A stretch of DNA of 64,000 nt from the NCBI GenBank assembly GCA_002708715.1, contig PAPB01000038.1, positions 1 to 64,000 of the forward strand, written 5' to 3'. Positions 16,017-49,494 of this stretch are shown here, one piece after another. Under the pieces are notes generated by a model that worked only from the letters and a program-made list of their open reading frames with translations, made no database searches and was not told the DNA's origin. A program made the translations under genes and the position numbers. This stretch comes from Fidelibacterota bacterium (GTDB taxonomy: Bacteria > Fidelibacterota > Marinisomatia > Marinisomatales > UBA1611). Position 1 is the stretch's first letter; each line of letters begins with the position of its first letter.

Positions 16017-16646
16017 ATGAAATATATTTTACAATTTATCTTCATTTCATTTTTAATGGGACAATCAAAATATCCAGCTGATACTTTAATTACATCTAGC
16101 AAAATTACAATTATAAAAAAAATTGGATTACTACCAATTTCCATATGGCAAAGAATATCATATAATTCTAATTATTTTAATTGTCAATTTTATCCTAGTT
16201 GTTCTAATTATGGTGCTAGTGCAATAAACCAATTTGGTATAATTCATGGATCTATTATAGCTACAGAAAGGATTACACGGTGTAACCCTTTTGCAATTTA
16301 TTATCACACAGAATTAAATTTTCCTTTTAAAGAAGATGACGGAAGACTAATTGACCCAATCATTTATGATAGAAATTTAGAATCAAAAAAATCACCTATA
16401 TTAGCAACAACATTATCTTTTATCCCAGGAGCTGGACGATTCTATGCAGGTAGAAAACTAGATGGATTGATGGGACTCTGGACGGTATATCTAACAACTA
16501 GCTCTGCTTATTATGCTAATAAAAATAAAAATCCAATTTTAGGACCATTCTTTTTAGGAATTGCAGGAGTTACATATTTTGGAGAAGTGTATGGTGGTTG
16601 GAGAGCAAATAAATATTATAAAAAAGTAAAAAAAAATAAAATTTGA
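16017..16646 (+). CDS. YidD domain (membrane protein insertion efficiency factor) fused to a C-terminal membrane region
   Basis: ORF; NCQFYPSCSNYGASAINQFGIIHGSIIATERITRCNPF is YidD-like; extended signal peptide and C-terminal GAGRFYAGRKLDGLMGL hydrophobic part. Confidence 0.82.
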   Translation: MKYILQFIFISFLMGQSKYPADTLITSSKITIIKKIGLLPISIWQRISYNSNYFNCQFYPSCSNYGASAINQFGIIHGSIIATERITRCNPFAIYYHTELNFPFKEDDGRLIDPIIYDRNLESKKSPILATTLSFIPGAGRFYAGRKLDGLMGLWTVYLTTSSAYYANKNKNPILGPFFLGIAGVTYFGEVYGGWRANKYYKKVKKNKI

Positions 16647-16965
16647 GCCACCGAGGAGATTCGAACTCCTGACCCACGCATTCTTATTTTCCAAAACTTT
16701 CGTTATGGTAAGGACTATATCACCATCTTCAACTTTACCTGTTAAGATGTTGGGCGCTCAAGATGAGATTATTGATCGTTCTTCTCACTCATTAGTCTCT
16801 ACACCTTACTGATTACTTTTAAGAACTTCACCAGTCTTGGCTCGGTATTGTCATCAACCTTACTTGCTAAGATTCTACCGAATTCACCCAATTTTTCATT
16901 AAACATTTCTGTATAAAGTCGCCAATTTGACGAATGCGTTGCTCTACCAACTGAGCTACGGTGGC
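16646..16965 (-). tRNA. tRNA-Thr(CGU), interrupted by a group I intron; exons 16965-16930 and 16682-16646
   Basis: 5' exon GCCACCG TA GCTC AGTTGGTA GAGC A ACGCA TTCGT; 3' exon AA TGCGT GGGTC AGGAG TTCGAAT CTCCT CGGTGGC T. All four cloverleaf stems pair perfectly once 247 nt are removed. Anticodon loop of the spliced product is UUCGUAA (CGU). G1:C72 and C2:G71 agree with Thr identity. Confidence 0.93.
16683..16929 (-). other. Group I intron (IC3-like, 247 nt, no ORF) inserted after U36 of tRNA-Thr
   Basis: Core elements: P AAUUCGGUAGAAUCUUAGC, Q ACAAUACCGAGCCAAG, R GGUGUAGAGACUA, S GAUAUAGUCC. Manual pairings: P1 exon UCGU/intron GCGA with U.G at the splice site; P3 UUGGGUG/CGCCCAA; P4 UCGGUA/UACCGA; P6 ACUGGU/AUCAGU; P7 GACUA/UAGUC; P8 CAUCUU/AAGAUG; P9 hairpin with GAAA loop. 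Intron ends in G (omega-G). Confidence 0.92.
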
Positions 16966-16976
16966 TTTAAATTTTA

Positions 16977-17315
16977 CTAATATGCTTCGACTTTTAATAA
17001 TTCCACTTCAAAAATAAGTGTTGCTGCAGGGGGAATTACATTTCCAGCACCCTTTTCTCCGTAACCAAGTTCAGGTGGAATAGTAAGTTTTCTTTTACCT
17101 CCAACTTTCATCCCTTTCACACCAATATCCCATCCTTTAATTACAGACCCTACACCAAGAGTAAAAGTAAAAGGCTCTCTTCCATCATTTAATGATGAAT
17201 CAAAAATGGAACCATCTTCCAATTTCCCAGTATAATTCACAACAACTTTATTATAATCCTTAGCTTCATGACCATCTCCAGAAACTAAATTTTCGATAAT
17301 TAATCCATTATCCAT
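16977..17315 (-). CDS. FKBP-type peptidyl-prolyl cis-trans isomerase
   Basis: ORF 112 aa; [16 protein letters not shown]...[32 protein letters not shown]...[14 protein letters not shown]. Confidence 0.95.
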
Positions 17316-49136: not shown

Positions 49137-49142
49137 TAAATG

Positions 49143-49494
49143 TGGAGGCGGGGAGAATCGAACTCCCGTCCGACATAGAATGATGAAAAACATCTACAAG
49201 CTTAGTTTCTTGGTTATTTTTTAATTTGATTATGTACCAAGAACAAAAACAAAATCAAACTAGCTTCCTTGTATTTCACCTCAAACTCGAAAGCATATTC
49301 AAGGCTAGTCTATGTTAGTGACGCTCCTAGCTCAGATCATAGACGAATCTGCACTGGAACGAGCTGCTAGACTTAAGCTGCAGCCATATAGCCGTAATCG
49401 GCATTTATAGTTGTAACAGATGATTAAGGAGGGTACTGTTATCCTCCGCTTGCAGTTAGACATAGTTCATATATCGTCGATACCGATCGCCCCC
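49143..49494 (-). ncRNA. ssrA: Transfer-messenger RNA (tmRNA)
   Basis: tRNA-like ends GGGGGCG (49494-49488) and CGCCTCC A; T-arm GGGAGTTCGATTCTCCC. PK1: GGAGG/CCUCC and UAACAG/CUGUUA. An 11-nt spacer precedes GCC; tag ORF GCC GAT TAC GGC TAT ATG GCT GCA GCT TAA (49402-49373). Confidence 0.93.

Follow-up and report, generated by a model that had tools for sequence, protein, structure and literature searches.

Which kind of self-splicing intron occupies the anticodon loop of a chromosomal tRNA-Thr gene, and from where might it have come? This question is raised by the tRNA-Thr(CGU) gene on the minus strand (16965..16646) of a 64,000-nucleotide stretch of DNA from a Fidelibacterota bacterium, in the following called the window, where a group I intron of 247 nt (the window intron) interrupts the gene after U36. 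Among bacterial tRNAs, those for Leu, fMet, Arg and Ile are well known to carry group I introns in the anticodon loop (PMC8450103), and in Beggiatoaceae such introns occur in tRNA Arg(UCU) and Leu(UAA) (PMC4853749). Equally, self-splicing introns have been described in the T-loop of tmRNA (883 sequences; PMC11915505), again a tRNA-like loop, but not an anticodon loop. The phage introns known to Hausner et al. in 2014 all resided in protein genes (PMC3984707), while over half of the viral group I introns are IA2, a subgroup otherwise mainly bacterial, from which others infer transfer between phage and host (PMC11835236). In the open-licence literature, neither a bacterial group I intron in tRNA-Thr nor a group IA intron in any bacterial tRNA is on record. 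While the kind of element is known, the host tRNA-Thr appears to be new and the phage-type subgroup in a bacterial tRNA appears, as far as searchable, unrecorded. The features described below make it very probable that the anticodon loop of this chromosomal tRNA-Thr(CGU) gene houses a phage-type, group IA-like self-splicing intron; splicing is predicted to restore the tRNA, and homing or recombination is the presumed route of arrival.

The interrupted gene and the anatomy of its intron

The 5' exon reads GCCACCG TA GCTC AGTTGGTA GAGC A ACGCA TTCGT on the minus strand and is separated by 247 nt from the 3' exon, AA TGCGT GGGTC AGGAG TTCGAAT CTCCT CGGTGGC T (Table 1). Joined without the intron, the exons give a perfect tRNA-Thr(CGU) fold in ARAGORN, and the host tRNA is complete. 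The initial annotation had proposed just this host, strand and exact insert length, with which coordinates and sequence agree, and had placed the insertion after U36, as exon reconstruction now confirms. Its assignment to the group I introns with P, Q, R and S elements, for which a covariance search had been proposed as a check, is borne out by a match to Rfam RF00028 at 16939-16691 that spans all 253 model positions (76.2 bits against a gathering score of 50, E 1.4e-17).

The catalytic core P3-P4-P5-P6-P7-P8 with its P, Q, R and S elements is complete. P1 is formed by U33 C34 G35 U36 and intron position C1 with the guide GGCGA, and the proposed pairing of GCGA with exon UCGU, the U36.G at the 5' splice site and the final G of the insert are all found. 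In the window copy no mismatch interrupts P1, P3, P4, P6, P7 or P8; its flaws are one mismatch each in P2 and P9 and a P7.2 of two pairs only. An endonuclease gene is absent from the window intron, which is ORF-less, as 247 nt leave no room. With the group I core complete, the archaeal bulge-helix-bulge type and a transposon were set aside as readings of the insert.

Table 1. Positions of the interrupted gene, its intron elements and neighbours in the window, and of related introns in phage and viral tRNA genes
Feature	Position	Strand	Description	Basis
5' exon of tRNA-Thr(CGU)	16930..16965	-	nt 1-36, ends with anticodon C34 G35 U36	exon reconstruction; uninterrupted orthologues in relatives
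Group I intron	16683..16929	-	247 nt, starts CAAAU, ends AUAAG (terminal G)	RF00028; boundaries by exon reconstruction, U.G and terminal G
Internal guide	16919..16923	-	GGCGA; GCGA pairs exon UCGU (P1), first G pairs intron C1	P1 covaries over five anticodons
P2	16900..16915	-	hairpin, GAAA tetraloop, one U-U mismatch in window copy	6/6 P2 pairs change on both sides across relatives
P3	16885..16891 (5' strand); 16750-16756 (3' strand)	-	UUGGGUG; CGCCCAA	alignment and covariation
P4-P5 region	16842..16881	-	P and Q elements	RF00028, covariation
P6	16808..16835	-	hairpin, outer helix ACUGGU/AUCAGU	alignment and covariation
P7	16793..16797 (5' strand); 16713-16717 (3' strand)	-	GACUA (R element); UAGUC (S element)	invariant in 11/11 sequences
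P7.1 and P7.2	16763..16792	-	P7.1 (AUGAG/CUCAU) around weak P7.2 (GA/UC), between P7 and P3 3' strand	alignment and covariation
P8	16724..16749	-	hairpin, outer pairs CAUCUU/AAGAUG	alignment and covariation
P9	16691..16708	-	hairpin CCAUAAC-GAAA-GUUUUGG	alignment and covariation
3' exon of tRNA-Thr(CGU)	16646..16682	-	A37 to discriminator U73, CCA not encoded	exon reconstruction
FKBP-type peptidyl-prolyl isomerase gene	16977..17315	-	just upstream, conserved neighbour	PF00254; synteny
YidD-like gene	16017..16646	+	convergent, stop overlaps tRNA 3' end by one base, conserved neighbour	PF01809; synteny
Introns in tRNA(CAU), isolated jumbo phages	L377:1988-2218; L415:332-559; L418:274-503		unannotated group I introns in phiKp_21, OU509535 (Klebsiella) and E. 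coli TH47	
Introns in tRNA-Thr(UGU), viral contigs	L407:5691-5930; L412:6446-6685; L409:1223-1462		group I introns after U36	
Intron in tRNA(CAU), viral contig	L413:8818-9058		group I intron	

It had further been expected that standard tRNA callers miss such a gene. This holds for ARAGORN in default mode, which calls no tRNA at 16965..16646, but not for its intron mode, which calls a gene at the locus, although as tRNA-Leu(AAG) with shifted boundaries. That the interrupted gene is in fact a tRNA-Leu(AAG), as this output would have it, is hardly credible: this reading breaks the U.G/terminal-G rule, and at the syntenic position relatives have uninterrupted tRNA-Thr(CGU) genes whose exon ends agree with those of the window gene.

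The genome (2.47 Mb in 45 contigs, 89% complete) contains one RF00028 match. An intact second tRNA-Thr(CGU), which together with a lack of splicing was to have counted against the initial reading, was not found among its 25 tRNA matches, which do include a tRNA-Thr(UGU). The host gene is a cheap place for an intron: its codon, ACG, is used least among the Thr codons (3.3 per 1000, counted over window ORFs of at least 200 aa) and should be read by tRNA-Thr(UGU) as well.

Covariation and fold

Among 11 aligned tRNA introns, standard pairs occupy 95.8% of the pair cells, against 78% in shuffled alignments and 31-43% with slid partners; two-sided changes occur in 34 of 57 pairs, and the covariation score is 0.55, compared with 0.20 for shuffles and 0.05-0.10 for slid partners, figures that flatter the model since the structure was derived largely from the same 11-sequence alignment (RNAalifold), with relatives picked partly for their resemblance to the window intron. 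None of 500 shuffles reaches either the observed share of standard pairs or the observed number of two-sided changes. P7 was placed by hand in the tested structure and never varies, and MAFFT shifts P7.1 by one column in some rows, while P7.1 is paired in 38 of 38 cells when the sequences are aligned by hand.

By comparison of the sequences, the most telling of the covariation evidence is P1, where the guide tracks the anticodon: with hosts that comprise Thr(CGU), Thr(UGU), CAU, Asn(GUU) and Phe(GAA), it pairs with the exon in all 52 cells, and the U.G is kept in 13 of 13, a result partly built in, as exon boundaries were set by the P1/U.G rule together with an intact tRNA. On the other hand, the stand-alone fold of the window intron is not more stable than that of shuffled sequences (MFE z -0.71), so that the evidence consists of covariation and homology, not of stability.

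Distribution at the orthologous locus

The locus order FKBP, tRNA-Thr(CGU) and YidD-like gene is conserved. In a congener (G004) an uninterrupted tRNA-Thr(CGU) lies directly behind the FKBP gene, likewise in G011, G019, G020 and G021. A pattern for tRNA-Thr(CGU) is matched by 92 gene starts across the 172 genomes of the class. Intact tRNA-Thr(CGU) genes, which often read AATGCGA, account for 78 of these; a further 6 run into contig ends, 6 are truncated halves and 2 have an intron. These two are the window gene and a gene in G122, a member of another family, the intron of which sits at the same site and is 76% identical to the window intron; this gene is located around 2 kb from FKBP with LptD beyond, and in G121 and G123, of the same family as G122, tRNA-Thr(CGU) is uninterrupted. 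Intron-bearing and intron-free alleles, for which a search among relatives had been suggested, are thus both seen; presence is sporadic at the orthologous locus and, because a congener has an uninterrupted orthologue at the same place, the intron comes and goes. Gain in two lineages and many losses are both possible.

Three tRNA-Thr(CGU) 5' halves (L309, L322, L337) stop close to TTCGTAA, where the intron is inserted, and lie beside serine recombinases, identified by PF00239 in L309 and L322, additionally by PF07508 in L322, and by resemblance in L337. The point of the anticodon loop that carries the intron seems to serve an integrating element as well.

Relatives in tRNA genes and phages

The nearest relatives of the window intron are the tRNA-Thr(CGU) intron of G122, introns in tRNA-Asn(GUU) and phage introns, some of these in phage tRNA genes. 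Within the same order, G093 and G094 possess a related intron in tRNA-Asn(GUU) that differs in its site, after U35, and shares 58% identity with the window intron and 64% with that of G122. The G094 copy differs additionally in that its P1 loop contains an HNH ORF, interrupted by one in-frame stop, for which the Pfam HNH match is weak (E 0.001, just below cut-off).

Similarity at the DNA level leads from the window intron to an intron of Flavobacterium phage FpV21 (E 4e-5) and, with a non-significant E of 0.8, to one of Vibrio phage VCO139 that lies between the DNA polymerase gene and an HNH gene; from the tRNA-Asn intron it leads to jumbo phages of Klebsiella and E. coli (E 7e-15). The closest phage group IA introns, those of FpV21, the VCO139 polymerase gene and Vibrio terminase genes, have core sequence and P7.1/P7.2 layout in common with the window intron, with roughly 70-80% identity over partial core alignments; phage group IA introns differ in that they reside mostly in protein-coding genes and often beside or with an HNH gene.

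Phage tRNA genes, however, also contain such introns. In Klebsiella phage phiKp_21 the stretch matched by the tRNA-Asn intron lies within a cluster of tRNA genes, where it interrupts a tRNA(CAU) gene as an intron that the record does not annotate. This intron, those of OU509535 and TH47 in tRNA(CAU) and those of viral contigs in tRNA-Thr(UGU) (L407, L409, L412) are of the same subgroup as the window intron, with the tRNA-Thr(UGU) introns at exactly the same site. They differ in being 58-64% identical to the window intron, in guides that fit other anticodons and in being unannotated in their records. A stricter CGU pattern found no tRNA-Thr(CGU) intron in the viral contigs.

Subgroup, splicing and origin

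By these sequence features the window intron is to be read as phage-type and group IA-like, not as the IC3 usual in bacterial tRNAs, an assignment made from P7.1/P7.2 and the database neighbours, as RF00028 is one general group I model. Placement in group IA follows from P7.1 and P7.2, which are inserted between P7 and the 3' strand of P3, P7.2 being just two pairs long in the window copy. These elements, as Michel and Westhof reportedly set out in 1990, mark group IA, and the insertion at 16763-16792 is one that IC3 introns do not have. Elements of this kind are among the features by which group I subgroups are separated (PMC3984707).

The initial annotation had set the intron beside the small IC3 introns of bacterial tRNAs, which is right for anticodon-loop site and size, but not for the subgroup. 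Membership in that classical lineage nevertheless has its attractions: host type, insertion site and small size are as in the IC3 introns of tRNA-Leu, Arg, Ile and fMet (PMC3984707), and the introns of tRNA-Leu(UAA), tRNA-Arg(CCU), tRNA-Ile(CAU) and tRNA-fMet are likewise ORF-less, inserted after U and equipped with a guide that pairs the anticodon. The host tRNA is another one, however, P7.1 and P7.2 are present and covarying, and the best database neighbours are phage introns. As the tRNA-Asn introns of Omnitrophota (L362, L364) are without the P7.1 insertion, the IA/IC3 contrast is visible even among tRNA introns, and an IC3 identity of the window intron is considered improbable. Even less probable is that splicing has been lost and that the gene is a decaying pseudogene, tolerated as tRNA-Thr(UGU) can read ACG by wobble. 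The presence of this tRNA and the rarity of the codon in the window ORFs would fit, as would the several family relatives that show no tRNA-Thr(CGU) beside FKBP; yet both exons are intact with every tRNA stem formed, the helices P1, P3, P4, P6, P7 and P8 of the window copy are fully paired, and the G122 homologue has kept the same core at 76% identity, therefore pointing to selection over long divergence.

A functional phage-type intron would most likely be removed by ordinary two-step guanosine-initiated self-splicing, with catalysis and guanosine dependence predicted from the sequence. After transcription, the guide GGCGA would pair with the 5' exon end (P1, U36.G) and guanosine bound in P7 would attack after U36. 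The freed U36 could then attack after the terminal G, whereby the exons would be joined to an ordinary tRNA-Thr(CGU) reading ACG. The source of the intron may have been a phage or a related tRNA intron, with transfer at the DNA level through homing or recombination; homing is inferred, since the window intron is without an endonuclease. An endonuclease gene has likely been lost after homing, because the intron is now ORF-less and the related tRNA-Asn intron of G094 has an HNH ORF with an in-frame stop.

Threonine tRNA joins the hosts of bacterial group I introns, with a phage-type intron in a place that is usually IC3. Beyond this locus, a phage-borne IA lineage might have adapted to tRNA anticodon loops, with its guide retargeted to Thr(CGU), Thr(UGU), CAU and Asn(GUU) and with movement between phage tRNA genes and bacterial chromosomes, a possibility put forward tentatively, at slightly less than even chances. 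If true, bacterial tRNA introns would comprise an old IC3 inheritance plus a continuing phage-to-host traffic unseen by tRNA callers. The related introns in jumbo-phage tRNA genes offer a testable route for the movement of tRNA introns between phage and host. The interrupted gene is also a warning that tRNA censuses lose or misname such intron-bearing genes.

Additional observations

Among the named control genomes, group I introns occur in tRNA-Asn(GUU) not only of the two Omnitrophota but also of a Levybacteria genome (L363), and a Moranbacteria genome (L368) carries one in tRNA-Phe(GAA) after U33. The RF00028 matches L028, L032 and L033 look like chance. Seven group I introns over the Rfam cut-off were detected in G217 (L422, L424-L429; contigs C257, C201, C25 and C237), four of them on one 31.6-kb contig; they were rejected as tRNA introns, as they sit in protein-coding genes, which are phage-like in appearance. 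A weak group I-like intron (32 bits) is found in an apparent phage major capsid gene of G008 (L027:1380-1597), and L405 and L414 contain introns in genes resembling it. In viral contigs L403, L404 and L408, group I introns interrupt the T-loop of apparent tmRNA genes. A tRNA-like 3' part with CAT anticodon and interrupted 5' side (L026:1501-1557; G000:C28:121885-121941) could mark an integration site at which a tRNA was truncated or split. The window itself encodes at 49140-49494 a tmRNA without intron, with the tag peptide ADYGYMAAA.
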